From positions 1 to 37,001 of the forward strand of contig SCQH01000026.1 of NCBI GenBank assembly GCA_004321925.1: DNA of 37,001 nt. The letters run 5' to 3'. Source of the stretch: Nitrospirota bacterium (GTDB lineage: Bacteria; Nitrospirota; Thermodesulfovibrionia; Thermodesulfovibrionales; UBA6898). Under the pieces are notes generated by a model. The model was not told the DNA's origin. It did not search any database and was given only the letters and a program-made list of their open reading frames with translations. Both the position numbers and the translations under genes were made by a program. Shown here one piece after another: positions 168 through 28,037 of the stretch (within the stretch, counting starts at the first letter, position 1; each line of letters begins with the position of its first letter).

Positions 168-536
168 GTGAAGACGATTCTTATAGTAGAGGACTCTGCG
201 ACAACACGGGCACTGATCCGGGCCGTGATCGATGAGCTGGGCGACGTTGAGACGGTAGAGGCAGGGTCCGGGTTCGAGGCGCTCAAGATGCTGCCGCTCC
301 AGGATTATGATCTCATCATCACCGACATCAACATGCCCGATATCAACGGGCTTGAACTCATCAGCTTTGTCAGGAGCAACCCGCGGTATACACACCTTCC
401 CATCATCATCGTCAGCACTGAAAGAAGTGAGGAGGACAAACGACGGGGTATGGCCCTCGGCGCTACCGGCTATGTCACCAAGCCTTTCAAGTCAGGCGAG
501 CTTCAGGACATCGTCAAGAACACACTCGGCCTATGA
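168..536 (+). CDS. CheY-like single-domain response regulator
   Basis: A 122-residue receiver domain with no output domain, which would take phosphate from CheA and pass the signal on by protein contact. The acidic pair E8/D9, phospho-acceptor D53 (in ITDINMP), S83/T84 and K105 (in TKPF) are all present, so it should be phosphorylatable. The start is GTG, supported by a GGAGAGG ribosome site 4 bases upstream. Its stop overlaps the cheA start as ATGA, which implies translational coupling to CheA. It is first in the operon, and a close relative closes the operon (14945-15313). Without CheX, CheZ or CheC nearby, how it is dephosphorylated is not visible. Assignment to the receiver family is secure; the downstream target is unknown. 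Confidence 0.95.
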   Translation: MKTILIVEDSATTRALIRAVIDELGDVETVEAGSGFEALKMLPLQDYDLIITDINMPDINGLELISFVRSNPRYTHLPIIIVSTERSEEDKRRGMALGATGYVTKPFKSGELQDIVKNTLGL

Positions 537-2530
537 AATCGTCGAAAAAGGAATTCATTGCAGAGGCAGAGGAACTGCTGGAGGAGTCTCAGAGGCTGAT
601 CCTCGAGATACAGGACACGATCTCGACCGGCCTCAACCCTGACACCATCAACGCCCTTTTCAGGGCAATGCATACGCTCAAGGGGGTCTCGGGTCTCTTC
701 GGGGTGCAGGGTATCAGCACGCTGAGCCATTCTCTTGAGACCCTCATGGACGAAGTAAGGCTCGGCAAGATGGACGTCACGCACGACGTCGTCAGTTTTC
801 TCTTCAGGAATGTCGACATCCTCAAGCAGATCACCGAGAAGGTCGGCAAGGGAGACGACGAAGAGGATGTCAGCGGCTTTGTCAGGGACATAGAATCGTT
901 CAGGGCCTCGCAGAAGGGCGAAGCAGCAGGGGCATCCACTGCCTCGGCGATCGATGCATCGATCCTGAAGGTGCTTTCCGAGTATGAGGAGCATCGTCTC
1001 AAGGCCAACCAGAAGGAGGGCAAGGGCATTTACCTTGCCAAGGCAGTATTTACCCTCGATACGTTCGACACGGACCTTGAAGCGCTTACCAGGGCAGTGA
1101 AGGCAAAGGGTGAGCTGATCTCGACCCTCCCGACGTCCCAGAACGTTCCGGACGGATCCATAGGCTTCAACCTCATGTTCGGGACCAAGAGCCCGGTCAG
1201 CGAGCTGAAGAGCGAGATCCCGTATGACATTGATATGCTGGTCAGCCCGCAGGGGGCGGCCCCGGCAGCGCCAGTGGCCGAGACAACTGAAGCACAGCCG
1301 CAGTCGAAGCAGCAGGATACCCATCTGAAAAGCACCTCGACGACCGTCAGGGTCGATATTGAGAAGCTTGACAGGATACTCAATACGGTCGGAGAGCTGA
1401 CCCTGGCCAAGGGCGCGATCAAACGTATCGGGATCGAACTGGTCGAGCAGTTCGGCCAGAACAACCTCGTCTACGACATACATAAGATATCCCAGACCCT
1501 CGAAAGAAGGCTTGCCGAGCTCCAGGACCAGGTGCTGGAGATCCGCATGGTCCCGATCGGGCAGATATTTTCAAGGCTCGCGCAGGTGGTCCGGCGCTAT
1601 TCACGGGACGTGGACAAGACCATTGACCTTGTCATGTACGGAGAGGACACGGAGCTCGACAAATACCTGGCAGAGGAGATCGTCGACCCGCTGATGCACC
1701 TGATCAAGAATTCGATCGACCACGGGATCGAGACGGCTGAGGAGAGAAAGCGCAAAGGCAAGAAGGAATCAGGCACCGTCATTCTCAAGGCCTACCAGAA
1801 GGGCAACCACGTCGTGGTGGAACTGAGGGACGACGGCGCCGGGATCGACATTGAGAAGGTCAAAAAGAAGGCCCTGGAAAAGGGGCTGGTCGAGCCGGGC
1901 ATCGAGCTGGGCGAAAAAGAGGTCATCGATTTTATCTTCACCCCCGGCTTCAGCACCAAGGACTTCGCCAACGAGGTCTCCGGCAGGGGGGTCGGCATGG
2001 ACGTCGTGAAAGAGAAGCTTTCCGCCCTCGGGGGCTATGCCGAGGTCGAGACGAAAAAGGACGTTGGCACGGTCTTTATGCTGACCCTGCCAATCACCCT
2101 TGCGATCATCAAGGCGCTTATCGTAAGGGTCGGGGAGGAACGTTTCGCGGTCCCCCTGACCTCGATGTCGGAAACGCTGATCGTCGAACACAAGGATATC
2201 CAGACGATCGAATGGAAAGAGGTCTACTACCTGCGGGGTGAGATGCTGCCGATGGTCCGGGTCAGCACCTTCTTCCATTTTGAACCCTTCAAGACGGACC
2301 GGTCGTTTGCCGTGGTGGTCGGGCTCGGGGACCGGAAGGTCGGCATCCTGGTCGACGAGATGTTCGGCCAGCATGAGATCGTCATTAAATCCCTCGGCGA
2401 TTACCTGAAAAAACTGCGGGGCTTTGCCGGGGCGGCAGAGATCGGCAAGCATGAGGTCATCCTGGTTCTGGACGTGGAATCACTGATCGACGAGTCAGTG
2501 CTCAAGCAGAAGGGGGTCGGCCATGTTTGA
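533..2530 (+). CDS. cheA: Chemotaxis histidine kinase CheA
   Basis: A 665-residue kinase that autophosphorylates and feeds CheY-like regulators and CheB. The N-terminal Hpt domain carries the phospho-accepting H47 in AMHTLKG. A linker of about 170 residues follows, ending in a low-complexity Ala/Pro/Gln stretch; I cannot firmly assign a P2 domain to it. The dimerisation helices start near residue 270. The ATPase domain has its N box (NSIDHGIE) near 393-400, DDGAGID near 433 and GRGVGMD near 485. A CheW-like regulatory domain occupies about 530-655. Length and domain order are normal for the family. It overlaps the preceding gene by 4 bases and the following ATPase gene by 8, so all three are probably translationally coupled. 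Confidence 0.97.
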   Translation: MKSSKKEFIAEAEELLEESQRLILEIQDTISTGLNPDTINALFRAMHTLKGVSGLFGVQGISTLSHSLETLMDEVRLGKMDVTHDVVSFLFRNVDILKQITEKVGKGDDEEDVSGFVRDIESFRASQKGEAAGASTASAIDASILKVLSEYEEHRLKANQKEGKGIYLAKAVFTLDTFDTDLEALTRAVKAKGELISTLPTSQNVPDGSIGFNLMFGTKSPVSELKSEIPYDIDMLVSPQGAAPAAPVAETTEAQPQSKQQDTHLKSTSTTVRVDIEKLDRILNTVGELTLAKGAIKRIGIELVEQFGQNNLVYDIHKISQTLERRLAELQDQVLEIRMVPIGQIFSRLAQVVRRYSRDVDKTIDLVMYGEDTELDKYLAEEIVDPLMHLIKNSIDHGIETAEERKRKGKKESGTVILKAYQKGNHVVVELRDDGAGIDIEKVKKKALEKGLVEPGIELGEKEVIDFIFTPGFSTKDFANEVSGRGVGMDVVKEKLSALGGYAEVETKKDVGTVFMLTLPITLAIIKALIVRVGEERFAVPLTSMSETLIVEHKDIQTIEWKEVYYLRGEMLPMVRVSTFFHFEPFKTDRSFAVVVGLGDRKVGILVDEMFGQHEIVIKSLGDYLKKLRGFAGAAEIGKHEVILVLDVESLIDESVLKQKGVGHV

Positions 2531-3341
2531 GGAATTCTACGGCCTCACGACCAAGCCCTTCAGCAAGACCCCTGACCCCCGGTTCCTGTTCCTGAGCCGG
2601 AGCCACGAGGAGGCCCTGGCAAGGCTCCAGTATGCGGTCGAGGAGAAGGAGCTTGTCCTGCTGACCGGCGATGTCGGCTGCGGCAAGACGACCCTGACCC
2701 GGGCGCTGATGGACATGCTCGGGCCCCAGTACAGCGTGATCAATATCATCAACCCCATCCTGACCCCGGCGCAGTTCCTGAGGACCATTGCGATGCGCAT
2801 GGAGATCGATATCCCGACAAATCATAAGGCCGACCTGCTCGATGCGATCTACAACAAGGTCTACCAGGATTACGAGTCCGGCATATCCTATGTCATCATC
2901 ATTGACGAGGCGCAGCTGATCCCTGCCCGGGACACCTTTGAGGAGATCCGCCTGCTGACGAACTTTCAGCTGGATTATACCAACCTGATAAGCCTGATCC
3001 TCGTCGGCCAGACCGACCTGAGAAAGAGGCTGAACCATAAGACCTTTATGCCGCTGAAACAGCGGATCGGCCTTTTTTATCACCTGGGGCCGATCAGCGA
3101 GGCCGAACTGCCTGAATATGTCATGTACCGGCTGAGGATGTCAGGCAGGGATGAGATGCTCTTTACCAGCCGGGCGCTGGAACTGCTGTATAAGTATTCG
3201 GCCGGGGTGCCCCGGGTGATAAACAGTATTGCAACCTCATCGCTCCTCGACGGATACGTGCGGGAGGCAAGGGTGATCGACGAGGTCCTCATCGACGAGG
3301 CAGCACGGGAGCTTGGACTAAATGGATATCGCGAAAATTAG
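2523..3341 (+). CDS. ExeA/GspA-type AAA ATPase in the che operon
   Basis: A 272-residue P-loop ATPase. The opening (EEFYGLTTKPFSKTPDP) is typical of the ExeA/GspA group. Walker A is GDVGCGKTT at 49-57 and Walker B with the catalytic acid is VIIIDEAQ near 124-131; a sensor-like GQTDL segment and a C-terminal lid with a GVPRVIN motif follow. In type II secretion, ExeA pairs with the peptidoglycan-binding ExeB, but no ExeB, secretin or pseudopilin gene is here and there is no membrane segment. It sits between cheA and cheW, overlapping cheA by 8 bases and the cheW gene by 20. A role in positioning or assembling the array is an inference; the family alone does not show it. Confidence 0.88.
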   Translation: MFEEFYGLTTKPFSKTPDPRFLFLSRSHEEALARLQYAVEEKELVLLTGDVGCGKTTLTRALMDMLGPQYSVINIINPILTPAQFLRTIAMRMEIDIPTNHKADLLDAIYNKVYQDYESGISYVIIIDEAQLIPARDTFEEIRLLTNFQLDYTNLISLILVGQTDLRKRLNHKTFMPLKQRIGLFYHLGPISEAELPEYVMYRLRMSGRDEMLFTSRALELLYKYSAGVPRVINSIATSSLLDGYVREARVIDEVLIDEAARELGLNGYREN

Positions 3342-4011
3342 GAAAAAGGCCCGCGAGCAGGGTCAGGAAAAGAAGGCTGAAGAAAGTCCTGCGGTTATAC
3401 CGGGCACTGCCGGCGTCCCGCCGCAGGATGAACCGGCCCCGGTGAAGGCGGACGAGCCGGACGAGGCAGCAGCACCGGAGGCCGCGGAAAAACCGGCGCC
3501 CTCACCGGCAGCCAGGGACGAGGCGAATGAGGAAGATCAGGGCATCGCCGAGCTCCTTACCTTCAGCCTTGACAAAGAGGAGTTTGCCTTCAGGGTGACC
3601 GAGGTCGAGGAGATAATCAGGTTCCAGCGGATCACGATCGTACCGACCGTGCCTGAGTATGTCGCCGGGATAACCTCCCTGCGCGGGAAGATCATTCCCG
3701 TTATCGACCTTAAGACCCGGCTTGCTCTGCACAAACGCACGGCGCGGGAGTCCGCCCATGCGGTGACGAGCGGGATCGACGGGGTGGACAATAAGGGAAA
3801 GATAATAGTCCTGGCAGGACCCCGGGGCCTGATCGGCGTCATTATCGACAAGGTCATGGGAGTGGTCCGGCTGCCGGATGATATCATCCTTGAGCCTCCT
3901 CCGCACCTGAGCGAGGAGGAGACAAAATATATCGGGGGCGTGGTGATCGTGGATAAACGGTTCATTTCGATCATACGGTCGGAAGATGCCCTGGATATTG
4001 AGGTCGAATAG
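3322..4011 (+). CDS. cheW: CheW coupling protein with Ala/Pro/Glu-rich N-terminal extension
   Basis: A 229-residue protein. About 70 N-terminal residues are basic and then Ala/Pro/Glu-rich and probably disordered; a CheW domain follows from near residue 73 to the end. The domain shows the usual pattern: LTFSLDKEEFAF, EVEEIIRF, VPEYVAGITSLRGKIIPVIDL and a final GVVIVDKRFISII strand. CheW bridges CheA to the receptor tips. The ATG lies inside the end of the ATPase gene (20-base overlap) with a weak GGGAG site 11 bases upstream. Typical stand-alone CheW is about 150-165 residues, so the extension is unusual and might be a tether. A second, compact CheW is encoded at 9725-10210. Confidence 0.93.
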   Translation: MDIAKIRKKAREQGQEKKAEESPAVIPGTAGVPPQDEPAPVKADEPDEAAAPEAAEKPAPSPAARDEANEEDQGIAELLTFSLDKEEFAFRVTEVEEIIRFQRITIVPTVPEYVAGITSLRGKIIPVIDLKTRLALHKRTARESAHAVTSGIDGVDNKGKIIVLAGPRGLIGVIIDKVMGVVRLPDDIILEPPPHLSEEETKYIGGVVIVDKRFISIIRSEDALDIEVE

Positions 4012-4020
4012 GGGAGGACT

Positions 4021-6873
4021 ATGCGCGATAAACTGGAAGTCAAGATCTTAGCCCTGGTGGTGATCCTGATCGTGATCGGGGTCATTTCTGCGGGTGTCAT
4101 GGTGTCTCAGGTCGAGAAATCGAGCCTGTATTCCATTACCGAGACGAGTTCCGCGACGACGGCGAACATCATTGTCAGGGAGATCGAACGGACGATGCTC
4201 GAGGGCAGGGCAGACATGGCAAAGGCCCTGATGGACAGCATGAAAGGGGCGAGCGGCGTTGAAGAGGTCTCCCTGCTGAATTACCAGGGGAGGCAGGCCT
4301 TTGACAAGACCGCCGCGCCGACAGAGGCGGAGGTCATGAAGACGGTCGCCCAGACCAAAGCGCCGCGTTTCATCAGGGAGACCAAAAAGCTGACGTTTTA
4401 CAAACCGCTCATGAATGCCGAGAGATGCAAAACATGCCACGCGGCCGACCCTGAGGTCCTGGGTGCGGTCAAGCTTTCCATTTCTATCGAAAAGGAATAT
4501 AACAACTCCATAAAACTTATCCTCTTCGTCATCCTTGCCACGATCCTCGCCTGCATGATCTTCAGCATCATCCTCTGGCTTACGATCAGGAAGATGGTTG
4601 TGATCCCGATACAGAACCTTGAGGCTGCGGCCTCAAAACTGACCGAAGGTGACCTTTCCTTCAGTGTGCAGATCTCGAGCACCGACGAGATCGGCCGGTT
4701 CAGCAAGGCGGTCCAGGGTTCACTCCTGTCGATCTCGGGGATCCTGCAGAGGGTCAAGGAGGTCTCACGGCGGGTGACCCGCGTGACCGAGGACGTCGGC
4801 AAGGAGGCCAGGGCGGTCGTGGAAGGGACGATTCTCGAGACAGAGGCGATCAATAATATATCTGCCTCGATCGAGCAGATGAACGCCTCCATAACCGATA
4901 TCTCCGAGGGCACTGACGGCCTTGCCGCTTCGGCCGAGGAGACGGCAGCTGCCATGGAAGAGATGGTCATGAGCATCAACCAGATAACCAACAATACCCA
5001 GGATATGTCGGTGGCGGTCGAGGCCACCTCAGCCTCCATCGAACAGCTGTCGGCAACGATACGGGAAGTGTCCAACAATTCGGGCGAGTTGGCCGGCGCT
5101 GCCGAGGAGACCCAGAGCGCGATCCTCGAGATAACGTCCTCCATCAAGGAGGTCGAGACGCGGGCAAAGGAATCAGCCCAGCTCTCCGATAAGGTCAGGA
5201 AGGATGCGGTCAACCTCGGCATGGTCTCCGTTGAGAAGTCCATCGAGGGCATGCAGCATATAAAGGCCTCGGTCGAAAAGACCGCTGAATGCATCTCCAA
5301 GCTCGGAGGCAGGTCAGAGGAGATCGGCAAGATCCTCAACGTCATCGACGAGATAACCGACCAGACGACCATGCTGGCACTTAATGCGGCGATCCTCGCG
5401 GCCCAGGCCGGCGAGCACGGGAAGGGTTTCTCGGTTGTGGCAGATGAGATCAAGGACCTTGCTGACCGGACCTCCGTATCGACGCAGGAGATCGGCGAGC
5501 TGATCCAGTCGGTGCAGCAGGAGGTGCAGGACGCGGTCCTGGCCATGGGCGAGGGGCTTAAGTCCGTGGAGACCGGGTTTAAGGTCACCAATGAGGCGGT
5601 GGATGCGCTCAGGAAGATCGTGGAGAGCTCCAAGAAGTCATCTGACATGGCCGCTGCCATCGAGCATTCCACGACCGAGCAGTCAAAGGCTGCCCGGCTG
5701 GTCTCAGAGGCGATGGAGAGGGTCCTCAACATGGTGGGACAGATCGCCAAGGCAACGACCGAGCAGAACAAAGGCATCCAGCTTATCATGAAGGCGACCG
5801 AAAAGATCAGGGACGTTTCCAGCCATGCGAGGATCGCGACGAATGAGCAGGCCCTCAACAGCAAGCAGATCTCCCAGGCCGTTGAACTGGTGTCTGACAA
5901 GAGCCAGCAGATCTCCAATGCGATCAGGGAGCAGAAGCTCGGCTCGAACCAGATATGGACCTCCATTGAGAAGATAAAGGACCTGCCGAGGGCGACCAAG
6001 GACCGGGCCTTCAAGCTCGACCAGATGGTGAGGGAACTGCTCAAGGACGCTGAACTGGCCGTGCTGGAGATGGAAAAGTTCAAGTTCGCCTCTGACGCCT
6101 CCAGCGGGCTGCTGAGGATGGGCGTCGTCCCTCTTGAATCGCCCGCCGTTATGTTCAAGAAATTCGGTCCGTTGACCGAATACCTGGGCAAGAAGCTCAA
6201 CAGGAAGGTGGACCTGAAGGTGGCGGTCGACTTTCAGTCTGCGGTCAATGACATCGGCCAGGGGGTTACCCAATTCTGCTTTATGACGCCGTCGACCTAT
6301 ATCGAGGCGCATAAGAAATACAACACCAGTGTACTGGTAAAGGCCTTACGGGACGGGAAGCCCTACCAGCATTCCGTCATCATAACCAAGAACGACAGCA
6401 ACATCAACTCCCTTGAGGACCTTAAGAACCGCTCGTTCGCCTTCGGCGATCCTCACTCCACATCGAGTCACATCGCCCCCCGGGGGATGCTCCTTGCAGC
6501 AGGGATCGATATCAAGGACCTTTTCTACTATAACTATCTCGGGCATCACGACGACATTGCGAAGGCAGTGCTCAACGGTGATTTTGATGCCGGCGCGGTG
6601 ATGGAGTCTACCGCATACAAGTACAAGGACCTGGGCCTGAGGTTCGTCAAGTTCTCGGACGATATCCCGGAGTTCAATATTACCGTTTCAACCAGCCTTG
6701 ACCCTGTCCTGACGTCCGAGCTCAAGGCCGCGCTGCTTGCCCTTACCGACAATACCGCCGAGGGCACGTCGATATTGAAGTCGATCAACGAAAATTACAC
6801 GGGATTTATCGAGTCAGCCGACGATGACTATAATAACGTCAGGATCATGATGACAAAAACAGGACTGCTATGA
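4021..6873 (+). CDS. Chemoreceptor: heme-type periplasmic sensor, HAMP, MCP, and C-terminal PhnD-like domain
   Basis: A 950-residue receptor. Transmembrane helix 1 is at about 8-28 and helix 2 at about 165-188. The periplasmic part between them carries CKTCH at 136-140, a c-type heme motif. HAMP follows (about 190-243), then the cytoplasmic signalling helices with the hairpin tip at about 443-477. From residue 697 to the end there is a complete domain resembling PhnD-type phosphonate/phosphite binding proteins: [20 protein letters not shown], a [13 protein letters not shown] segment and [12 protein letters not shown]. No membrane segment separates MCP from this domain, so it should lie in the cytoplasm, which is unusual for such a fold. 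The tip reads [10 protein letters not shown] instead of the common AAIEAARAGE. The ribosome site is GGGGAGG just upstream. The next gene encodes a separate PstS-like protein. Confidence 0.92.
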
Positions 6874-6884
6874 AGGAGAAGCTT

Positions 6885-7703
6885 ATGATGAAAAGAACCG
6901 GAGTGTTCATGGTTGTGTTCCTCGTTACCCTCTGTACGGGCATGGCCGGGGCTCAGGAGAAGATACGGGTGGCCGGGGCGGGAGGTATGATCCCGCTTCT
7001 CACTGAACTGGCGAAGACCTATATGGCTGAACACAATAATGTGGTGATCGAGGTGGCCCAGCGGTCGATCGAGTCGAAAGGGGGCGTGATGTCGGCGGCC
7101 GAAGGCAGGGTCGAGATCGGCATGAGTGCGCGGCCCCTGAAGGACGACGAAAAGGGGCTTGGCCTCCAGATGACCGAGATAGCGCGCCTGGCAACGGTCT
7201 TCGGCGTCAACCGTTCGGTAACGCTGAAGGAGCTTACGAGTGAACAGATCTGCCAGATCTATGGGGGCAGGATAACCAGCTGGAAGGAACTCGGCGGCGG
7301 CAAGGATGCGATCATGGCCCTTTCGAGGACGGACCATGATGCCACCAAGGAAACGGTCAGAAAGGGCATCCCCTGCTTTAAGAACCTGAAGGAGGCCTCT
7401 TCTGTCGTGACCATAGCCACGGCACCCGAAATGACCAAGGTGCTTGCGATGCGCCCCAACTCGATCGGCATCACTGATGCGATCGCGGTAGACGGTTCTG
7501 CCGGTGAGATCGTTCCGTTAAAGATAGACGGGATCGACCCGACGCCGGAGCAGGTCAAGTCCGGCAGGTACAAGATCATAAAGAATTTCTATCTCGTGAC
7601 GAAAGGTCCGGCCTCCGGCCCTGCCAGGGAGTTCATCGGTTTTATCAAGGGCCCGAAAGGGGCGAAGATCATTGAGTCACTGAAGGCGGTACCGGTTAAA
7701 TGA
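6885..7703 (+). CDS. Orphan PstS-like periplasmic binding protein
   Basis: A secreted solute-binding protein of the phosphate-binding (PstS-like) group, about 272 residues from this start. It has a signal peptide with a hydrophobic core and a likely cleavage after GMAGA. The mature protein starts IRVAGAGGMIPLL; the segment LTSEQICQIYGGRITSWKELGG and a following SRTDHDATKE are family hallmarks. I chose ATG 6885 because AAGGAG sits 6 bases upstream; the more upstream ATG (6870) overlaps the receptor stop but lacks such a site. No PstA, PstB or PstC is nearby, so a transport role is not supported here. Wedged between two receptors, it may present an anion to one of them (inference). Its stop overlaps the next receptor start as ATGA. 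Confidence 0.88.
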   Translation: MMKRTGVFMVVFLVTLCTGMAGAQEKIRVAGAGGMIPLLTELAKTYMAEHNNVVIEVAQRSIESKGGVMSAAEGRVEIGMSARPLKDDEKGLGLQMTEIARLATVFGVNRSVTLKELTSEQICQIYGGRITSWKELGGGKDAIMALSRTDHDATKETVRKGIPCFKNLKEASSVVTIATAPEMTKVLAMRPNSIGITDAIAVDGSAGEIVPLKIDGIDPTPEQVKSGRYKIIKNFYLVTKGPASGPAREFIGFIKGPKGAKIIESLKAVPVK

Positions 7704-9724
7704 TACTGAAAAAGTCAATAACGGCAAAGTTCATCTCAGCCCTTTTTGTGGTCTTCCTGATCGGCCAGTTCGCCGGGGCCGTGCTCCTGATCATGTTCAC
7801 CCGGTCAGCTCTCTTTGATTCACTCGAAAAAAGGATCAGCAGGGCCGGTTCCACGACAGCAGGGATGAGTGCAGGCCCTTTGCTGAGCTACGATTACGGC
7901 CTGATCGACGTCTATCTTGAGGAGGTCATGAAGGACGATGACATCGCCTCGGTGCATATCCTCGACGGCACCGGGAAGGTGATCAGGGAGATCGTGAAGT
8001 CCAAAGATGCCGACCTGGTGAGCCTTAACCCGTTCTATTATAAAAAGGGCCTGACGCTCAGGGTCCCGGTGAATGCTGCCGGGTCAAAGATAGGAGAGGT
8101 GCGCATAGAATACTCGGCGAAGAGCGTCAATAAGAACATCTACGACAGCATGCTGGCGATATTTCTTTCGCAGCTCATGATGTTCCTGGTCATCGGGATT
8201 ATCATGGCCTATCTCTTCAACCGCAATGTCAAAAAACCGGTCAACGAGATCAACCGCGCCATTGAGAAGATCACGATGGGGGACCTGACCATAGAGGTGC
8301 CTTCCGTCGGCGAAAACGAGATCGGCAGCGTTGCCAAGGGCGTGATGTTCCTGCTCGAACGGCTTGTCCAGACGGTCTCAAAGCTTAATTCCACCGCGGT
8401 CAATGTCTCGATGGCGATCCAGCAGGTCAACGTGACCTACAACAGCGTGACCGGCGGCATGACCCGGCAGTCGGAGGCGGTCAGGGACGTTGCCAAGGCC
8501 GTCCAGAATGCCAATAAGGCCCAGTCCGACATCAGCGACAGCTCGGAGAAACTGGCCAGTTTTTCGGTTGAGAACGTCTCCTCGCTTATCGAGCTGAAGG
8601 CCACGGCGGAGGAGATAGCTTCAAATACCCAGAGGCTTCTCAAGGCCACCGAGGACCTCTATTCGGTCGTCTCGCAGATCACGCAGACCGCCAAGGCCAT
8701 TTCGAAGACCTCAAACAGCGCCCTGGTAGCGGTGGAAGACACCTCCGCCTCGGTCGAAGAGATCGGCGCCTCGATCAGGGAGGTCGAAGATCATGCCCGT
8801 GAGTCCTCCAAGATGGCCCTCCGGGTCCAGGACATTACGTCGGATACGGGGATGCTGGCGATCATGAATGCGGTCGAGGGGATGGAAAATATCTCGGTCG
8901 AGGTCCAGAAGTCCTACGAGATCGTGGAGCGGCTGGATTCCCGTTCCGTGGATATCGAGAAGGTGCTCTCGGTCATCAAGGACGTCACGGAAAAGACGAG
9001 CCTGCTGAGCCTCAATGCCGCGATCCTGGCCGCCCAGGCGGGTGAATACGGGAAGAGCTTCTCGGTCGTCGCGGATGAGATCAGCGCCCTCTCCGACAGG
9101 ACGGCCAGTTCAACGCGGGAGATCGGCGGCATCGTCAAGACGATCCAGAGGGACATCAAGGACGCCGGCCAGTCGATCGAATCCGCCAAGACACGGGTCG
9201 AGGACGGAAATACGCTTGTCCTGAAGGTCGGCGACGCGCTCAAGGACATTCTCAATGCGGCCGAACATTCCACCGAGATGACCAAGGCGATCGAGCGTGC
9301 TACCGAGGAACAGTCGCGGGGGTTAAAGCAGATCACGATAGGCATCGAGGACATCAGGAAGATGATGAAGGGCATCACTAAGTCCACCGGCGAGCAGGAC
9401 CGGGCTCTCGGCTTCCTTCTGGAGAGTGTCAGCGAGGTCAAGGACGTTGCCGACCTGAGCAGGCGCGGGACCGAGGAGCAGGCGATCGGCACGAAGGGCA
9501 TCTCCCGCAATCTCGAGCTTGCCAATGAAAGGATAACCAGGATAAATCAGGCGGTCCTCAACCAAAGCAAGCTCAATGATACGATCGTCGACTCGATGGA
9601 CAAGATAGGCAGCATCGGCAACGCGACCATCAGGGAGATGGAAGAGGTGTCGGTCTCCCTTAATACGCTCTTCGCCGAGATCGAGATCCTTAAAAAAGAG
9701 ATGCAGGGATTCAGGCTTAAATAA
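7700..9724 (+). CDS. Methyl-accepting chemotaxis protein
   Basis: A 674-residue receptor with transmembrane helix 1 at about 11-33, a periplasmic region of about 120 residues, helix 2 at about 154-173, HAMP at about 174-226 and a long cytoplasmic signalling coiled coil. The periplasmic region looks like a small PAS/Cache-like fold (VHILDGTGKVIREI, GSKIGEVRIEY), without a CxxCH heme motif. The signalling tip at about 425-461 includes [13 protein letters not shown], the same variant as in the other receptor of this operon. No C-terminal CheR/CheB tether peptide is seen. It starts in a 4-base overlap with the PstS-like gene and abuts the second cheW with no gap, so receptor, binding protein and coupling protein are probably made together. 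Confidence 0.93.
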   Translation: MILKKSITAKFISALFVVFLIGQFAGAVLLIMFTRSALFDSLEKRISRAGSTTAGMSAGPLLSYDYGLIDVYLEEVMKDDDIASVHILDGTGKVIREIVKSKDADLVSLNPFYYKKGLTLRVPVNAAGSKIGEVRIEYSAKSVNKNIYDSMLAIFLSQLMMFLVIGIIMAYLFNRNVKKPVNEINRAIEKITMGDLTIEVPSVGENEIGSVAKGVMFLLERLVQTVSKLNSTAVNVSMAIQQVNVTYNSVTGGMTRQSEAVRDVAKAVQNANKAQSDISDSSEKLASFSVENVSSLIELKATAEEIASNTQRLLKATEDLYSVVSQITQTAKAISKTSNSALVAVEDTSASVEEIGASIREVEDHARESSKMALRVQDITSDTGMLAIMNAVEGMENISVEVQKSYEIVERLDSRSVDIEKVLSVIKDVTEKTSLLSLNAAILAAQAGEYGKSFSVVADEISALSDRTASSTREIGGIVKTIQRDIKDAGQSIESAKTRVEDGNTLVLKVGDALKDILNAAEHSTEMTKAIERATEEQSRGLKQITIGIEDIRKMMKGITKSTGEQDRALGFLLESVSEVKDVADLSRRGTEEQAIGTKGISRNLELANERITRINQAVLNQSKLNDTIVDSMDKIGSIGNATIREMEEVSVSLNTLFAEIEILKKEMQGFRLK

Positions 9725-10210
9725 ATGCAGAAATTTGCGGTTTTCAAGATATCGGACGAGGTCTTCGGCATAACGATCGAAAGGGTTGTGGAGATCATCA
9801 AGCCCCAGAAGGTCTTCACGATCCCCGGTCTTCCGGAGTTCCTTTCAGGGGTGATGAATGTCCGCGGGATCGTTATCCCGCTGATAGATCTCAGAAGGCG
9901 GTTCGGTATGGTACCCTCCGGCAAAAAAGAGCGGGTCATCATCGTGCGGTACGATAAGGAAAAGGTCGGGTTCCTGGTCGATGAGATACGGGAGATCCTG
10001 TCGCTGACCCCTGAAGAGATGACCAGGCCTCCATCGCTCTTCAAGGGCTTCAAGACCGAATATATAACCGGACTGGGCAGGAAAGAGAACAGCATCATCA
10101 TACTGCTGAACATAGACAACCTGCTCACCTCTGAAGAGAGGATCATACTGCAGGAATCCATCGGGATGTTAGGAGAAGACTTTGCAGGAACTGATAAACC
10201 AGCTAAGTGA
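9725..10210 (+). CDS. cheW: CheW coupling protein (second copy)
   Basis: A compact 161-residue CheW domain with no extension, normal length for the family. Characteristic segments are FAVFKISDEVFGITIERVVEI near the start, FLSGVMNVRGIVIPLIDLRRRFG, and VGFLVDEI. The start ATG directly follows the stop of the receptor gene. The stop falls 29 bases inside the next gene (HEAT-repeat protein). Having two different CheW proteins with one CheA suggests that each receptor could have its own coupler: the first CheW lies beside receptor one and this one beside receptor two. That pairing is inference from gene order. Confidence 0.95.
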   Translation: MQKFAVFKISDEVFGITIERVVEIIKPQKVFTIPGLPEFLSGVMNVRGIVIPLIDLRRRFGMVPSGKKERVIIVRYDKEKVGFLVDEIREILSLTPEEMTRPPSLFKGFKTEYITGLGRKENSIIILLNIDNLLTSEERIILQESIGMLGEDFAGTDKPAK

Positions 10211-12158
10211 CGGCAATGTAGAGATACGGAGAGAGGCGGTCGAGACCATGCGCGGGATGCGCACGGAGGCCTGCATCCCGGTCCTGCTGAAGGCGATGGA
10301 AGACGTCAGCTGGCGTGTCAGAAAGACTGCCGTTGATATCCTCTTTGACGAGTATGCTGTCGACGTCTATATCCAGGGGCTGATCCAGCTGCTGTATATC
10401 GAAGACAATGCCGGGGCAAGGAACTCGGCCATCGAGGCCCTTATCAAACTCGGCAGACGGGCTACGGAATTTCTGATCGAGGCCTTTAAGACGCCGAACC
10501 GCGATGTCAGAAAGTTCATCATCGACGTGCTCGGGGAGCAGCGCGACAGCAGGGCCCTTCCCCTGATGCTTGAGGCGATACGCGACGAGGACGAGAATGT
10601 CAGTGCGACGGCAGTGGAGCACCTGGGGAAGGTACGGGAGGTGTCCGTCGTGGATGCGCTGATAGACATCCTCAACAGCGGAGACCTCTGGACGGCCTAT
10701 CCGGCCGCTGACGCACTCGGCCGCATCGGGAACCTCAAGGCGGTCCCCCACCTGCTGGCAGCCCTGCAGAAAAAGCCCCTCAGGGAGCCGATACTGAAGG
10801 CCCTCGGCCGGCTGGCTGAACCCTCAACGCTCGGGCTCATCATCCCGATGCTGCAGGACCCTTCCCGGAATATCCAGGAGCAGGCCCTCAAGACGGTCGA
10901 GCGGTTCTACCATAATGGGGTCGATGCGGAATTCATCACCGCGGAAATGAAGCGTCTCCTTGGCAGTTCTGCCCTGGACCTCCTGATCGGCCATGCGTGG
11001 TCTGCCAAACGCGAGGTCCGGATATCGGCCATCCTGCTGCTGGGCCTGATGAAGGATGAGGCGGCCTACAGCCCCCTGCTGGACATCTCCCATGAGGAGG
11101 AGTTCGCAGAGGATGTCAAAAACGCCCTGGTGTTCATCGGCAGGCATAAGCCCGAGTCCCTGCTGAAGCTCTTTGATACCGGCAATCCGCATCAGCTGCG
11201 GTTCATCTGCGAGGTGACCGAAAAGATCGTCTCCCCTGTTTATTACGATATACTGCATGCGCTGCTTGATAACGAGGACGGTCATGTGCGTGCCACGGCA
11301 GCCCTGAGCATTTCGCGGCTGAAGGACATGCGCGTCACGCCCAAGCTCAGGTCCATGCTGGTCGACCCGTACGAGGATGTCCAGGAGGCGGCTGTCAGCG
11401 CCCTTGCGAACCTGGCCGGGGCCTTCCCGGACGAGGAGCTTGTCAGGATGCTGAAGGACAACAACCCTGTCCTCCGGAGAAACACGGCACGCCTGGTGGG
11501 GAGGCTGCGGCATGCGGCCCTGGTCGGCGACCTTGGGTTTGCCCTTAAGGACTCCGATAACAAGGTCAGGCAGTCCGTGGTCGAGACGCTCTCCCTGATC
11601 GGGACCGATGAGGCGGTGAGGTTCCTGACCTATGCCCTGACGGACGAGGAACCGGCGATCAGGATCTCGGCGGCGCTGAGCCTTGGCCAGATCGGCGGGG
11701 AAGGGGTGAGGGATTCCCTGACCATCCTTGCCGCCGACCCGGATAATTCCGTGCGGGTCGCTGCAGCAAAATCACTCGGCGCACTGAGAGAGACCGGGGC
11801 GGTCATGACCCTGGCAGGTCTGCTCCATGATCCCAGCGGATTTGTGGTGACCTCTGCCATAGAATCCCTGGGCTCTATCGGGGGCGGCGAGGCAAAACAG
11901 GGGATCATTTCCATGCTCTCCTCTCCCGATGATGAGGTGCGCAGGACGGCCATCATTGCGCTGGGGGCCTTTGAGGATGTTGAGGACCAGCTTCTCCCGT
12001 TCCTGACAGACAGCGACTGGGCCACCCGGATAGCTGCGGTGAGGTCCCTCGGGAAGACCCCCGGGGAGCGTGTGCGCAGAGAGCTCGAAAAGCTCCTTGA
12101 CACGGAAGAGGACCAGACGGTCATCAAAACGATCGAGGAGATGCTGCGTGTTCGATAA
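10182..12158 (+). CDS. HEAT-repeat protein within the che operon
   Basis: A 658-residue protein made almost entirely of HEAT/PBS-lyase-type alpha-helical repeats of roughly 31 residues, recognisable by recurring patterns such as VRKTAVDIL, VSATAVEHLGKV, VRATAALSISRL, VRQSVVETLSLIGT and IRISAALSLGQIGG. Such superhelices usually serve as protein-binding scaffolds. There is no signal peptide or membrane segment, so it should be cytoplasmic. The start is TTG, supported by AGGAG 6 bases upstream, inside the end of cheW; the overlap is 29 bases. It overlaps cheR by 11 bases. HEAT proteins do occur in some chemosensory clusters, but I know of no set function; scaffolding of the array or of an output partner is a guess. 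Confidence 0.9.
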   Translation: MQELINQLSDGNVEIRREAVETMRGMRTEACIPVLLKAMEDVSWRVRKTAVDILFDEYAVDVYIQGLIQLLYIEDNAGARNSAIEALIKLGRRATEFLIEAFKTPNRDVRKFIIDVLGEQRDSRALPLMLEAIRDEDENVSATAVEHLGKVREVSVVDALIDILNSGDLWTAYPAADALGRIGNLKAVPHLLAALQKKPLREPILKALGRLAEPSTLGLIIPMLQDPSRNIQEQALKTVERFYHNGVDAEFITAEMKRLLGSSALDLLIGHAWSAKREVRISAILLLGLMKDEAAYSPLLDISHEEEFAEDVKNALVFIGRHKPESLLKLFDTGNPHQLRFICEVTEKIVSPVYYDILHALLDNEDGHVRATAALSISRLKDMRVTPKLRSMLVDPYEDVQEAAVSALANLAGAFPDEELVRMLKDNNPVLRRNTARLVGRLRHAALVGDLGFALKDSDNKVRQSVVETLSLIGTDEAVRFLTYALTDEEPAIRISAALSLGQIGGEGVRDSLTILAADPDNSVRVAAAKSLGALRETGAVMTLAGLLHDPSGFVVTSAIESLGSIGGGEAKQGIISMLSSPDDEVRRTAIIALGAFEDVEDQLLPFLTDSDWATRIAAVRSLGKTPGERVRRELEKLLDTEEDQTVIKTIEEMLRVR

Positions 12159-13017
12159 GGAAGACATTATCCCTCTTTCTGAGGATGTCTTCAGGCTGAT
12201 ACGGGACATCATACGGGACTACTGCGGCCTGTATTTCGATGACTCGTCAAAATACCTCATAGAAAAGCGGCTCTCGAGGCGTGTCAGGGGCCACCACCTG
12301 GACGATTTCAGGGACTACTACCGTTTCATCCGTTACGACAAGAACTCCGCCAATGAGCTTTCAGAGATCATGGACATCCTGACCGTCAACGAGACCTATT
12401 TTTTCAGGGAGCAGAACCAGCTGAAGGCCTTCAGTGATGAGATACTCGAAGAGCTCAGGGAGACGAACCATGGGACCGGGACCCTGAGGATCTGGTCCGC
12501 CGGCTGTTCGACCGGCGAGGAGCCCTATACCCTTGCCATGCTCATCAATGAAAAAGGGACCTTCAGGGGGTGGGACATCGAGATCTACGGGAGCGATATC
12601 AACCAGCGCGTGCTCCAGACCGCCCGGAGGGGGGTATACCGGAAGAACTCCTTCAGGACCACCGAACCCTATTATTTGAACAAGTACTTTGTTGAGGAGG
12701 ACGGGAACTTCCGGATCAACGATGCGGTCAAGAAGAACATCACCTTCAGTTACCTGAACCTGCTGGACCCGTTCAAGACGAAGTTCATGGGGAAGATGGA
12801 TGTAATATTCTGCCGAAATGTTTTAATATATTTCGACGCAGCATCCCGCAGGAAGGTCATTGAGAATTTCTATGACAGACTGACCGACGGCGGGTATCTC
12901 CTGCTTGGTCATGCCGAGTCGCTGATAAATATCTCGACCGCCTTTAACCTCAAGCATTTTAAGAATGACATGGTGTACCAGAAACCTCTGAAAAAGGAAA
13001 TGAACCTGAAGGTCTGA
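12148..13017 (+). CDS. cheR: CheR chemoreceptor glutamate methyltransferase
   Basis: A 289-residue SAM-dependent methyltransferase that methylates receptor glutamates for adaptation. The N-terminal helical domain (about 1-75) precedes the catalytic domain. Key segments are NETYFFRE, the SAM-binding WSAGCSTGEEPYTLA, YGSDIN and FCRNVLIYF. I chose GTG 12148 because GAGGAG lies 7 bases upstream and the protein then begins like other CheR proteins; the reading frame stays open further upstream, but that part only shadows the HEAT gene. It overlaps the HEAT gene by 11 bases. Its partner cheB follows after 32 bases, so the adaptation pair is complete. Confidence 0.96.
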   Translation: MFDKEDIIPLSEDVFRLIRDIIRDYCGLYFDDSSKYLIEKRLSRRVRGHHLDDFRDYYRFIRYDKNSANELSEIMDILTVNETYFFREQNQLKAFSDEILEELRETNHGTGTLRIWSAGCSTGEEPYTLAMLINEKGTFRGWDIEIYGSDINQRVLQTARRGVYRKNSFRTTEPYYLNKYFVEEDGNFRINDAVKKNITFSYLNLLDPFKTKFMGKMDVIFCRNVLIYFDAASRRKVIENFYDRLTDGGYLLLGHAESLINISTAFNLKHFKNDMVYQKPLKKEMNLKV

Positions 13018-13049: not shown

Positions 13050-14114
13050 TTGAGCACCAAAATACTGATCGTTGATGACTCTGCCTATACGAGGCAGCTC
13101 CTCAGGAACATCATTGAGCAGGAGCCGCGCCTTGAAGTGGTCGGCGTCGCTGTCGACGGCGTCGATGCGATGGCCAAGACCCTGCGGCTCAAGCCCGATA
13201 TCATAACGCTTGATTTCGAGATGCCGGGAATGGACGGATTCAGCTTCCTGCGCTGGCTAATGCACGAGCGGCCCACCCCGGTGATCATGGTCAGTTCGTA
13301 CAACGATACGAAGACCGTGTTCAAGGCCCTCGAGCTGGGGGCCGTCGACTTTATCGCCAAGCCCACGAAACGGGCTTCCCTGGAACTCCGGGCCATAGAG
13401 AAGGACCTGATACAGAAGCTGAGCGGCATAAAACATATCCGGCTGGACAAGCTCAGCAGGAACCTGGAACTCCTCGACAAGGAGGAGTCCGTTGCCTCCC
13501 CCTCAAGCAGAGGGCAGAAAAAGATCGAACTGGTCGCGATAGGCTCGTCAACGGGCGGCCCCGCCGCACTCCAGATAATCCTGACCAGGCTTCCCGGGAA
13601 TTTCCCTGCAGCGGTCGTGATCAGCCAGCATATGCCCCGGGGCTTTACCGCTCCGCTCGCCGAGAGGCTGAACAAGCTCTCACCCCTTTCGATCAGAGAG
13701 GCGAAGGACATGGACACGATCGAACCCGGGACCGTTCTGATCTGCCCCGGCGGCAGTCATATGGGCATCGATAAAAAGGGGTCGCGCCACATTGTCTACC
13801 TGAAGGAGGGGACCCTTGAGGACAAATATACCCCTTCCGTGGACTACATGATGTCGTCGGCGTCCCGTGCTTTCGGGTCCCTGGCAATGGGGGTTATCCT
13901 GACCGGGATGGGGAACGACGGCAAGTCCGGCATGGTGGACATAAAAAATAAAGGCGGGTATACTATAGCTGAGGCTGAGGAGACCGCGGTGGTTTTCGGG
14001 ATGCCGGCAGAGGCCATAAAGACAGGCGCGGTGGAGTCTATTTTGCCGATCTCTGATATTCCGGCGGCCATTGCCAGGGTCGTCAATGTTCCGGTCACCA
14101 GGGAGAAAAAATAG
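13050..14114 (+). CDS. cheB: CheB protein-glutamate methylesterase
   Basis: A 354-residue two-domain enzyme that removes methyl groups from receptors (and deamidates glutamines) when phosphorylated by CheA. The receiver domain (about 1-120) has D9/D10, phospho-acceptor D55 and K104. After a linker, the esterase domain has its catalytic triad in place: S167 in GSSTGGP, H194 in SQHMP and D290 in GMGNDG. The start is TTG, supported by a GGAG site 8 bases upstream. The stop shares one base with the GTG start of the next gene. All catalytic residues are present, so it should be active. Confidence 0.96.
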   Translation: MSTKILIVDDSAYTRQLLRNIIEQEPRLEVVGVAVDGVDAMAKTLRLKPDIITLDFEMPGMDGFSFLRWLMHERPTPVIMVSSYNDTKTVFKALELGAVDFIAKPTKRASLELRAIEKDLIQKLSGIKHIRLDKLSRNLELLDKEESVASPSSRGQKKIELVAIGSSTGGPAALQIILTRLPGNFPAAVVISQHMPRGFTAPLAERLNKLSPLSIREAKDMDTIEPGTVLICPGGSHMGIDKKGSRHIVYLKEGTLEDKYTPSVDYMMSSASRAFGSLAMGVILTGMGNDGKSGMVDIKNKGGYTIAEAEETAVVFGMPAEAIKTGAVESILPISDIPAAIARVVNVPVTREKK

Positions 14115-14932
14115 TGGATAAAGATACGATAATAACCAGCAAGGCAGATGAATTTCTCCAGATGTTCAAGAAGGGGGAGGAATTCACCAAAGAACTCCTC
14201 AAAGAGAACGAGAAGCTCAGGTTCAAGATCGCCCAGTTGTCCGAGACGATGGCACGGACAGGGGACGAGGCGCGGATCAAGATCTATGAAGACCGGATAG
14301 CCCTGCTCGAGGAAGAGGTCAAATCCCTCCGGGAGAGGTTCATGCAGGTCGAGCAGGAGAACAAGGATTTCGCCTCGAAATACGTGGAGGTCGAGGAGGA
14401 GAACAACAACCTTGCAAACCTCTACGTGGCGAGCTATCAGCTCCATTCCACCCTTGATTTCTCCGAGGTGCTGAGGATCGTCCTGGAGATCGTCATCAAC
14501 CTCATCGGCGCTGAAAAATTTGCCGTGCTGCTGATCGATGATAAGACGAACGAAATGGTGCCGGTCTGCACCGAGGGCATGACCCTGTCAGACGCCCCCA
14601 AGGTCAGGATCGGGGACGGGACCATCGGGTCTGTTGCAAAAGAGGGAGAAAGTTATTTTGCCTATGACCTCAGCAGCGAGGTCTTCAACCCCCTGGAACC
14701 GATCGTCTGCATACCGCTCAAGATAAAGGAACATGTCATCGGGGTGATCACCATATATAAATTACTGGTGCAAAAGGCCGGCTTTTCCAATGTCGATTAT
14801 GAGCTCTTCAATCTTCTGGCCGGCCATGCCGCAACAGCGATCTTTTCCTCAAGGATGTATACGCAGTCCGAGCGGAAACTGACGACAATCCAGAGCTTCC
14901 TTGACCTGCTCAAGGAAAAGCCGAAGAAATAA
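14114..14932 (+). CDS. Coiled-coil and GAF-domain protein
   Basis: A 272-residue cytoplasmic protein. Residues 1 to about 112 form a charged, heptad-rich coiled coil (ELLKENEKLRFKIAQ, RIALLEEEVKSLRERF). A GAF domain follows at about 115-262, with segments such as FAVLLIDDKTNEMVPVC, GTIGSVAKEGES and PLKIKEHVIGVITIY. No catalytic output domain is attached. The start is GTG with GGGAG 8 bases upstream, overlapping the cheB stop by one base. GAF domains bind small ligands or act in protein contacts; this one may be an input or adaptor module for the pathway (inference). The paired coiled coil suggests a dimer that could dock on other helical parts. Confidence 0.87.
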   Translation: MDKDTIITSKADEFLQMFKKGEEFTKELLKENEKLRFKIAQLSETMARTGDEARIKIYEDRIALLEEEVKSLRERFMQVEQENKDFASKYVEVEEENNNLANLYVASYQLHSTLDFSEVLRIVLEIVINLIGAEKFAVLLIDDKTNEMVPVCTEGMTLSDAPKVRIGDGTIGSVAKEGESYFAYDLSSEVFNPLEPIVCIPLKIKEHVIGVITIYKLLVQKAGFSNVDYELFNLLAGHAATAIFSSRMYTQSERKLTTIQSFLDLLKEKPKK

Positions 14933-14944
14933 AGGGATCGAAAT

Positions 14945-15313
14945 ATGCCGAATATTCTTGTAGTGGAAGATTCACCGACAATGAGACAGCTGATAAGCTT
15001 CGCGATCAAGCGCGTCCCGAACTCACGCGTGATCGAGGCGACCGACGGCGTTGATGCCCTCAAAAAGCTGTCCTCCGAGAAGGTGGACCTCATCCTTGCC
15101 GATATCAATATGCCGGTCATGGACGGTCTGAAACTCGTCAGCCTGGTACGCAGCAACGCCTCCTATAAGGACATCCCTATCATTATCGTCACCACGGAAG
15201 GGGCTGAAGAGGACAAGAAGAGGGCGCTGGCGATCGGCGCCAATGCCTATCTTCCGAAGCCGATACAGACCCAGGAACTGATCAAGCTGGTCAATAGTTA
15301 CCTTCCCGCGTAG
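14945..15313 (+). CDS. CheY-like single-domain response regulator (second copy)
   Basis: A 122-residue receiver domain of the same length as, and clearly similar to, the first gene of the operon. E8/D9, phospho-acceptor D53 (ADINMPVMDG), T83/T84 and K105 (LPKP) are conserved, so phosphorylation by CheA is expected. The ATG is 12 bases after the preceding stop with a weak AGGGA site. This appears to be the last gene of the operon: a 231-base gap with a new promoter follows. With two similar CheY proteins, one may act as output and the other as phosphate sink, but nothing in the sequence tells which. Confidence 0.95.
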   Translation: MPNILVVEDSPTMRQLISFAIKRVPNSRVIEATDGVDALKKLSSEKVDLILADINMPVMDGLKLVSLVRSNASYKDIPIIIVTTEGAEEDKKRALAIGANAYLPKPIQTQELIKLVNSYLPA

Positions 15314-25734: not shown

Positions 25735-27966
25735 TCATAAAATAGTGAGAAAAAATTCCACAACTTCCTGATCAAACTGTATCCCTGCATACTTTTTGAG
25801 CTCTGCCCTGGCAGCCTCTACAGAAAGGGCCTTCCGGTATGACCTGTCCGAAAGCATGGCATCCAGGGCGTCCGCAACGCATAAGATCCTGGCCTTAAGC
25901 GGTATCTGCTTTCCCTTTAAGCCGTGAGGATAGCCTGAACCGTCCAGCCGTTCGTGGTGATGAAGGATGGCAGGCAGGGCAGGCCTCAAAAATGCGACCG
26001 GCTCAAGTATCCGGACGCCGCTTTCAGGGTGGGACATCATCATTTGGCGCTCCGAGTCGTCAAGCCCTGAGTCTTTTCTGAGCAACTCGACACGTATGCT
26101 TATCTTCCCGATATCGTGCAGGATAGCGGCGAACCTCAGGTGCTCGATCTCCTGCCTGCCGAGATCGAAGGCCTCAGCCGCCTTCAGGCTGTAAACCGCG
26201 ACCCGCTCGCTATGGCCCCGTGTATAGGGGTCCTTGGCCTCGACCGCATTTGAAAGGGCCATGACCGTCTGGAAATAGGAGGTCCCCATCTCCTCGAAGA
26301 GCCTGCTGTTGAAGATGCCCGAGGATATCACCTCGGCCAGGGACTGGAGGAACGACAGCTCCTCTTTTCCGTAATAGAGGCTGTCGCCTGAGGCCAGGTA
26401 GACGATCCCGGCCACCTCATCATGCACCTTCAGGGGTATCACCACCTCGCTTTTTATCTCCAGGTGGAGGCCGAGGGGGTTTTCGGCCGTATAGTTCATC
26501 AGGGCCCTGCCGGTCACGAAGGCCCGGTGCATGATGCTGCTTTTCAGTTTGAGCCGGTCATGCTCTACCGGACCGCCGATCCCCATCGACATCTTCGGCA
26601 GCAGGGTTATGGTTGACAGAAAATCACAACCGCTGCATGCCCCTATCTTGTCCGTGACATTCAGTGCGGGGTCATAATGGGTATGCCGGTCCTCCTCCCC
26701 GCGGAACTTCTTGGGCATAAGGTATACGCCCTGAGATTTAGTCAGCTCGATGCACATGGTCCCCGGGACCCTCCAGCAATTGATATCCCTCTTGTAGGCA
26801 GGGCAGTGATAGGCATCGCAGTCGAAGAACTCATGGCACCTTTTTGTCACGTCCTCTTCCACGAAGAGGAGCATCCCGGCTTCCATGCCTGTTGCGCCTG
26901 CCAGCAGTTTCAGCGCTGCCCGGAGCGTCTGGTCAAGATCGAGAGAGGCATTGATGTCCCGGGAGGCCTCAAGGAGCGTGCCGAGCTTTTTATTGCTGGC
27001 GAGAAGCTCCTGGTTAAGGGTCTCTATCTCGCCTATATACCTTCTCCGGTTCGAGTCGTTTTCGCTGAGGGTGAGGCTCATCCGGTTATGGTTGTCGATA
27101 AGCTGGGTGATCTCGTCGCCTTTCTGTGTCTTGTACACGACGCAGGTGAAGCAGGCCTCAGGTTTTTTTCCACCCGGTATGGCGTTGCAGGCGGTAGATT
27201 CCCTCAGCCAGCAGGGTATCGTATCATCGGCGTATGAAGGGCAGCCCGTATTCCCGCAGCAGTTGATCTCATAACAGCGCGTCCCCCTCGGCTTGAAGAA
27301 GACGTACTCGCCGCCTGCTATCTTTCTGGTGGCCTCGGTAAGGCTTCGCACCGGGGACAGGACCATGCGTCGGCTGAACGCGATCAGGACCGCGGAAAGG
27401 GAGATCGTCGTGAAAAGCCCGAACGCAGCCATCCGGCCGGTCAGGTCAGCGACGCTATGCTCCTTTTCGGCAGAGGCAAGCTGTATGACCACTATCCCCC
27501 GTATCTTCTCTTCGGCAGCGTGGCAGGCATGGCATCTTTGCTCATTCAGTAACGGTCTCAGGTAAAACTGCGTCCCCTCAAGGGATACCTGCGTGATCTC
27601 TCCCTTCTGAAGAGGCCGGAGGATGTGAGGATCGACCTGCAGCAACGGGGTCCCTTCCTGAAAGGCAGTCGTCCCGTTCGTTTTTAATATCCCCAGCCCT
27701 TTGATCCCGTCAATGGGGGAGAGTTCGCTTAAGAGCCTGGCAGTATCTTCCGGCCGTCCGCTGAGCATATTGTCCTTTAACGCACTGCATATCACCGTCG
27801 CCACGGTCTCAGCGTTTCTTGTATGTTCCTTCCTGACAATTATACCTTCGCGCCTGATGATCAATGCGGTCAGGATGACGATCGCGAGGGTCACGGACAG
27901 GACAAGGGTGGCGATGAACTTTGTTTCGAGGCTCAGGTTCTTAAATCTCTGCAGAAAGGCAGGCAT
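25735..27966 (-). CDS. HD-GYP protein with heme-type periplasmic sensor, split HAMP, GAF and two Cys-rich modules
   Basis: A 743-residue membrane protein (numbering from ATG 27966). Helix 1 is at about 16-37 and helix 2 at about 183-198; the periplasmic part carries CHACH at 145-149, and the run FYLRPLLNEQRCHACH is clearly related to the heme-sensor part of the chemoreceptor at 4021. HAMP begins after helix 2, but a module with eight cysteines (231-275) seems to interrupt it before its second half (GDEITQLIDNHNRM). A GAF-like region contains a second, similar module (cysteines at 377, 383, 388, 397, 405, 444, 447). The C-terminus is an HD-GYP domain (LHDIGK, HHERLDGSGYP), probably a cyclic-dinucleotide phosphodiesterase. 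Ribosome site GGAGGG lies 11 bases upstream; a TTG at 28011 is an alternative start. Confidence 0.9.
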   Translation of the reverse strand: MPAFLQRFKNLSLETKFIATLVLSVTLAIVILTALIIRREGIIVRKEHTRNAETVATVICSALKDNMLSGRPEDTARLLSELSPIDGIKGLGILKTNGTTAFQEGTPLLQVDPHILRPLQKGEITQVSLEGTQFYLRPLLNEQRCHACHAAEEKIRGIVVIQLASAEKEHSVADLTGRMAAFGLFTTISLSAVLIAFSRRMVLSPVRSLTEATRKIAGGEYVFFKPRGTRCYEINCCGNTGCPSYADDTIPCWLRESTACNAIPGGKKPEACFTCVVYKTQKGDEITQLIDNHNRMSLTLSENDSNRRRYIGEIETLNQELLASNKKLGTLLEASRDINASLDLDQTLRAALKLLAGATGMEAGMLLFVEEDVTKRCHEFFDCDAYHCPAYKRDINCWRVPGTMCIELTKSQGVYLMPKKFRGEEDRHTHYDPALNVTDKIGACSGCDFLSTITLLPKMSMGIGGPVEHDRLKLKSSIMHRAFVTGRALMNYTAENPLGLHLEIKSEVVIPLKVHDEVAGIVYLASGDSLYYGKEELSFLQSLAEVISSGIFNSRLFEEMGTSYFQTVMALSNAVEAKDPYTRGHSERVAVYSLKAAEAFDLGRQEIEHLRFAAILHDIGKISIRVELLRKDSGLDDSERQMMMSHPESGVRILEPVAFLRPALPAILHHHERLDGSGYPHGLKGKQIPLKARILCVADALDAMLSDRSYRKALSVEAARAELKKYAGIQFDQEVVEFFLTIL

Positions 27967-28037
27967 CAGGTACGGGTCCCTCCGGAGGTTCGGATAATGC
28001 TGCGGGAACAAAATGAACGATCATTCCTGAATTCTCT

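Follow-up and report, generated by a model that had tools for sequence, protein, structure and literature searches.

The window (the whole 37,001-nucleotide stretch of Nitrospirota DNA analysed here) encodes a transmembrane chemoreceptor that carries, behind its signalling hairpin, a complete binding-protein domain of the PhnD/PtxB type. We consider it fairly probable (roughly 0.6) that this is a long-type receptor whose C-terminal domain would serve as a sensor of the oxyanion type inside the cell and act on HAMP and hairpin, with a periplasmic heme domain providing a further input. Among the receptors of this phylum-wide che operon, the fused protein is the constant one.

Domain order and topology of the fused receptor

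From its ATG onward the receptor frame is free of stops, and the order of its Pfam domains (Table 1) agrees with the first-pass annotation, which had read TM-CxxCH-TM-HAMP-MCP and then a PhnD-like domain in one uninterrupted frame. The signalling hairpin scores 153.3 bits against PF00015 (cut-off 34.6) and the HAMP domain 31.6 bits, and the coupling partners CheA and CheW are encoded in the same operon. At the C-terminus, the complete PF12974 (Phosphonate-bd) profile is matched with an E-value of 3.4e-62 (210.4 bits, cut-off 27).

Hydropathy peaks of 3.1 mark two membrane helices and no others, and the basic residues of the sequence TIRKMVVIP after helix 2 are the usual mark of the inner side. 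From residue 640 to the C-terminus, the maximum hydropathy is 0.95 and no hidden membrane helix was found. A helix between residues 660 and 700 was rejected on this ground, and likewise none lies between hairpin and binding domain in any of the 39 full-length fused proteins that were extracted and on which our account of the family's anatomy rests. The annotation's claim that no membrane helix intervenes ahead of the PhnD-like domain once the hairpin has ended thus stands.

The periplasmic domain contains the motif CKTCH; its Pfam match is PF21563, not DUF3365, the family of sCache_heme (DUF3365/Tll0287), in which CxxCH lies in a periplasmic Cache-like domain. Elsewhere in the window (25,735–28,011, minus strand), an HD-GYP protein with GAF and HAMP domains shows a weak match to the Mcp40H-20 sensor.

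Table 1 Features of the fused receptor and of its operon. Positions are those of the window; residues are those of the fused protein.
Feature	Residues	Position	Strand	Basis
CheA, same operon		533..2530	+	Pfam, locus comparison
ExeA/PEP-CTERM-ATPase-like AAA protein, conserved in operon		2523..3341	+	Pfam, NCBIfam, locus comparison
CheW, directly upstream of fusion		3322..4011	+	Pfam, locus comparison
MCP-PhnD fused chemoreceptor, 950 aa		4021..6873	+	Open frame and Pfam
Transmembrane helix 1	9-27	4045..4101	+	Hydropathy 3.09
Periplasmic sensor domain PF21563 (Mcp40H-20)	50-157	4168..4491	+	Pfam, E 1.1e-12
CKTCH c-type heme attachment motif	136-140	4426..4440	+	Sequence motif
Transmembrane helix 2	167-185	4519..4575	+	Hydropathy 3.08
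HAMP (matched part)	196-226	4606..4698	+	Pfam
MCP signalling hairpin, tip at E465	429-569	5305..5727	+	Pfam MCPsignal, E 7.6e-45
Last helix of returning arm, end level with HAMP	655-685	5983..6075	+	Model, arm lengths
PF12974 type II binding-protein domain, predicted cytoplasmic	700-937	6118..6831	+	Pfam, structure prediction
STS, putative counterpart of oxyanion-binding STS of PtxB/PhnD	S813-T814-S815	6457..6465	+	Alignment; PMC5700983
Putative counterpart of PtxB H155/H160	H843	6547..6549	+	Alignment
At place of capping tyrosine of phosphite-specific PtxB	F885	6673..6675	+	Alignment
PstS-like binding protein, signal-peptide-like N-terminus, overlaps stop of fused gene		6870..7703	+	Pfam, NCBIfam
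Second MCP, same arm lengths, ends where PhnD domain would start		7700..9724	+	Pfam, arm lengths
Second CheW		9725..10210	+	Pfam, locus comparison
HEAT-repeat protein, conserved in operon		10182..12158	+	Pfam, locus comparison
CheR		12070..13017	+	Pfam, locus comparison
CheB		13050..14114	+	Pfam, locus comparison
GAF-domain protein, conserved in operon		14114..14932	+	Domain match, locus comparison
CheY-like receiver protein		14945..15313	+	Domain match, locus comparison

The C-terminal domain is predicted to adopt a binding-protein fold

Structure prediction of residues 690-950, with an alignment of 38 fused sequences as input, yielded a two-lobed binding protein at high confidence (mean pLDDT 95.6, pTM 0.89). 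Foldseek returned PtxB (5o37; E = 4e-28, TM 0.82) and ArrX (6x8w; TM 0.85) as top matches, with PhnD also among the structural matches, and VIA-align gave a Z-score of 29.5 both for ArrX 6x8w (rmsd 2.3, 247 aligned) and for PtxB 5o2j (rmsd 2.7, 252 aligned). PtxB was equally recovered by sequence search, at 4e-27 with the single protein and 1.8e-50 with a profile. The suggestion that the ~250 C-terminal residues are PhnD-like is thereby borne out, and neither of the two findings named in the annotation as refuting it (a fold unlike a two-lobed binding protein, a membrane helix between residues 660 and 700) turned up when sought. Among NCBIfam models, the domain lies above the cut-off of TIGR01098, which comprises phosphate/phosphite/phosphonate binding proteins (152.4 versus 112), and well below that of the PhnD equivalog TIGR03431 (134.4 versus 261.1). 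Proteins of the Phosphonate-bd/TIGR01098 type are usually periplasmic, whereas this domain follows the hairpin with no membrane helix in between; free homologues in the same genome begin with an export-signal-like hydrophobic stretch, which the fused domain lacks.

Arm lengths suggest a position of the domain level with HAMP

In every long member in which both landmarks are clean, 243 residues separate the DEIG motif of HAMP from the hairpin tip, and 234-249 residues separate the tip from the start of the binding domain; two loci with extra motif matches (L110, L111) were left out of this comparison. In the short class, the corresponding distances are 158 and 144 residues. We take long and short receptors to be the ~64 and ~40 heptad classes. 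Since outgoing and returning arms match in both length classes, the binding domain is expected to start level with HAMP in both. Unfused neighbouring receptors mostly have the same 243-residue arm, and nearly all of them end 224-225 residues past the tip, i.e. at a point corresponding to residue 689-690 of the fused protein, which argues that a receptor of this kind acquired the domain at the point where it would naturally stop.

In a model of the full-length protein, the helix runs up to residue 685 and the domain begins at 697. As the hairpin itself was poorly modelled (pLDDT 40-70, pTM 0.41), contact between domain and HAMP is deduced from the lengths alone. Taken together, topology and arm lengths suggest that the domain is cytoplasmic and lies next to HAMP, not far from the membrane, in agreement with the annotation, which had proposed the cytoplasm near the membrane end of the receptor; the unfused neighbours, ending where the domain starts, are in line with this.

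The putative ligand site resembles that of PtxB

PtxB holds its oxyanion by an STS...H motif, alongside which stand a Tyr at the hinge, another that acts as cap and an Asp latch (PMC5700983). The motif has its counterpart in S813, T814, S815 and H843 of the fused receptor. In contrast, F885 and L705 take the places of the capping Tyr (Te Y208) and the latch Asp (Te D22), and operon members mostly have His, Gln or Thr at the place of the hinge Tyr. S813 is invariant across all fused members examined and 39 of 42 have H843; T814, S815 and H843 are retained in most operon-type members. Column entropies are low (0.0 for S813, 0.36 for H843 and, in operon members, 0.79 for T814 and 0.57 for S815) relative to the domain median of 1.46. 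With the STS...H site kept and cap and latch replaced, the ligand is likely of the oxyanion type, whereas specificity for phosphite is not supported.

In other branches of the family the motif has changed, to SAT or SST in a set of paralogues and to STG in the short class, and their ligands probably differ from that of the operon type. Two such paralogues, 962 and 982 residues in open frame, are encoded in the window's own genome on contig C113. At L009 (1256-4201 and 8611-11496), two fused paralogues have the altered STS, and one of the two is devoid of CxxCH; paralogues of the C113 type, these two included, stand outside che operons.

The fused receptor belongs to a conserved che operon

The fusion is flanked by che genes in 27 operon-type long loci (L078-L080, L084, L089-L111). 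Where the full order is visible, it reads CheY, CheA, ExeA-like ATPase, CheW, fusion, PstS-like protein (in some), second MCP (in some), CheW, HEAT protein, CheR, CheB, GAF protein and CheY. The PstS-like gene occurs in the window and in six relatives and is missing from most. Besides the receptor, the ExeA-like ATPase and the HEAT-repeat protein are constant parts of the operon throughout the phylum.

No match to flagellin was found in the window's genome, which encodes four PilT-level ATPases; flagellin was also absent from 15 of the 21 cluster-bearing genomes. With flagellin lacking and PilT-type ATPases present, type IV pili or another non-flagellar route would be a likelier output of the pathway than swimming.

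Distribution and shapes of the family

A search of 296 Nitrospirota genomes, with the junction plus the domain as query, detected fused long receptors in at least 62 and the short form in at least three more (~65 together); these are lower bounds, as up to six candidates were scored per genome. In a second, small phylum, six of eight genomes contained a fused receptor. None was found in 297 genomes of the phylum centred on a Desulfuromonadales MAG or in 398 genomes of that centred on Sulfuriferula, where matches at E ≤ 1e-40 were confined to the binding domain.

Fused receptors come in three shapes. The long receptor has a periplasmic domain; a second form of ~830 residues (L134, L136 and, with a less clear N-terminus, L137) and a third of ~635 residues (L073, L074, L075, L112) have none. 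In these two forms, L137 aside, a pair of membrane helices lies side by side in the sequence, and no recognisable sensor other than the binding domain is left. Of the 39 full-length proteins, 26 contain CxxCH. The conserved core of the family is the cytoplasmic binding domain; the heme sensor is not part of it.

In a tree of fused and free domains, all fused domains group together with a node support of 0.35, compared with 0.97 once the short class is excluded and 1.0 for the short class alone, so long and short receptors may go back to one fusion event, or the short ones may have gained the domain separately. One 426-residue frame (L081:9546-10823, genome G134) has its binding domain within the fused clade and lacks the N-terminal part; it may be a split or frameshifted fusion.

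A working model and its alternatives

We favour a scenario in which a PhnD/PtxB-type two-lobed protein was added to the C-terminus of a long (~64-heptad) transmembrane chemoreceptor. With the returning arm of the hairpin ending level with HAMP, the domain would hang in the cytoplasm near the membrane, where its STS...H site would most likely bind an intracellular oxyanion or an oxyanion-bearing metabolite. Opening and closing of the lobes could then alter how HAMP and the upper hairpin pack, and with it CheA activity. By analogy with sCache_heme, the periplasmic c-heme domain may add another input, either redox or a gas (NO, for instance), and the pathway would act on type IV pili or another output more than on flagella. 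For the 950-residue protein, a dual input of this kind, periplasmic c-heme plus an oxyanion-type domain, had been put forward in the first-pass annotation and is the best-supported reading; ligand, binding and signalling are what we infer.

That an MCP gene and a free PhnD gene were joined by an error of annotation, frame or assembly has a practically negligible probability. We found no point in its favour, and the reading is refuted by recurrence: the open fused frame appears without stops in dozens of independent assemblies, including the single-contig genomes G011 and G031, and the junction aligns at the same place in 39 proteins. More serious is the idea that the domain has kept its fold as a protein-protein docking or structural module (e.g. 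for CheR, CheB or array packing at HAMP level) and senses no small molecule. Where the domain sits, by the hairpin's HAMP/adaptation end, would suit this role, as would the replacement of the phosphite cap and latch and the changed STS motif of the C113-type paralogues and short class, whose probably differing ligands we count against our preferred model. However, the residues of the STS...H site are better conserved than the median column of the domain, and docking would leave the fused members that lack a periplasmic domain without a recognisable sensor; we therefore hold this explanation to be improbable.

A specific form of the favoured model has the domain sense intracellular phosphate (or arsenate), making the operon a phosphorus-status pathway. 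Phosphite, phosphonate, arsenate or phosphate is the ligand of its closest relatives of solved structure, the domain falls within the TIGR01098 subfamily, and a PstS-like gene follows the fusion in the window and six relatives. Yet most relatives are without that gene, the capping Tyr and latch Asp are absent, and neither fold nor family settles which ligand is bound. On balance, we find the phosphate version doubtful. A point against the favoured model itself is that phosphate is millimolar in the cytoplasm, so a domain with micromolar affinity for it would be saturated, and the ligand may be something other than phosphate.

Returning to the oxyanion-type sensor in general, the architecture points to a cell that reads a signal from outside jointly with the internal level of some small molecule. 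If so, a solute-binding protein of the exported type has moved into the cytoplasm and, at the C-terminus of a transmembrane chemoreceptor, now serves as its conserved sensor. Tentatively, and at somewhat less than even odds, we extend this to a phylum-wide receptor class in which a domesticated periplasmic binding protein beside HAMP would read an intracellular metabolite or oxyanion, gate the response to heme outside and steer pili or another non-flagellar output. The che operon extends over a poorly cultured phylum, and its fused receptor would offer a clean test system for the integration at HAMP of two inputs, one from either side of the membrane, with the forms lacking a periplasmic domain allowing the inner input to be studied separately.

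Relation to known systems

Each part of the receptor has been known before. With the PtxB/PhnD family (PF12974, TIGR01098), the fused domain shares its full length, its fold (Z 29.5) and the STS...H site; known members, however, are exported and feed an ABC transporter, while here the domain is predicted to be cytoplasmic and is fused to a receptor, with Phe885 and Leu705 instead of the Tyr cap and Asp latch. AioX and ArrX have the same fold (ArrX Z 29.5) and are a precedent for its service in sensing rather than transport (PMC5908839), but they are free periplasmic proteins that form the first component of a separate signal transduction system (PMC5908839), in contrast to the receptor-fused domain. 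The CZB domain of TlpD-type receptors is a precedent for a cytoplasmic ligand-binding domain C-terminal to the hairpin of a chemoreceptor (PMC12871147); TlpD, though, is soluble and CZB a four-helix zinc domain (PMC12871147), whereas the receptor described here spans the membrane and its added domain is of the two-lobed kind. As for the outer input, sCache_heme and GSU0935-GSU0582 represent periplasmic CxxCH sensors found in MCP-type receptors, among others (PMC12889525, PMC2577667), and NO binding by a periplasmic c-heme sensor has been described (PMC12889525); these receptors are not known to carry a C-terminal binding domain such as that of the fused receptor. In the open-access literature searched, outside which most subscription papers lie, we found no earlier account of an MCP with a C-terminal phosphonate-binding domain. 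What is new relative to that literature is the combination, the position of the domain and the retention of this arrangement in a che operon throughout the phylum.

Unfused and tandem relatives of the binding domain

The conventional, unfused arrangement exists within the same genome: on contig C48 (L012:6627-12986), a free protein of the PhnD type, which begins like an export signal, directly precedes an MCP, and further frames including a CheA follow. Elsewhere in the phylum, many frames of 570-600 residues contain two tandem PF12974 domains (e.g. G054:C74:3965-5494), and a 754-residue frame of genome G009 (L077:7340-9601) has a DsbD/CcdA-type membrane domain fused to a tandem pair of Phosphonate-bd domains.
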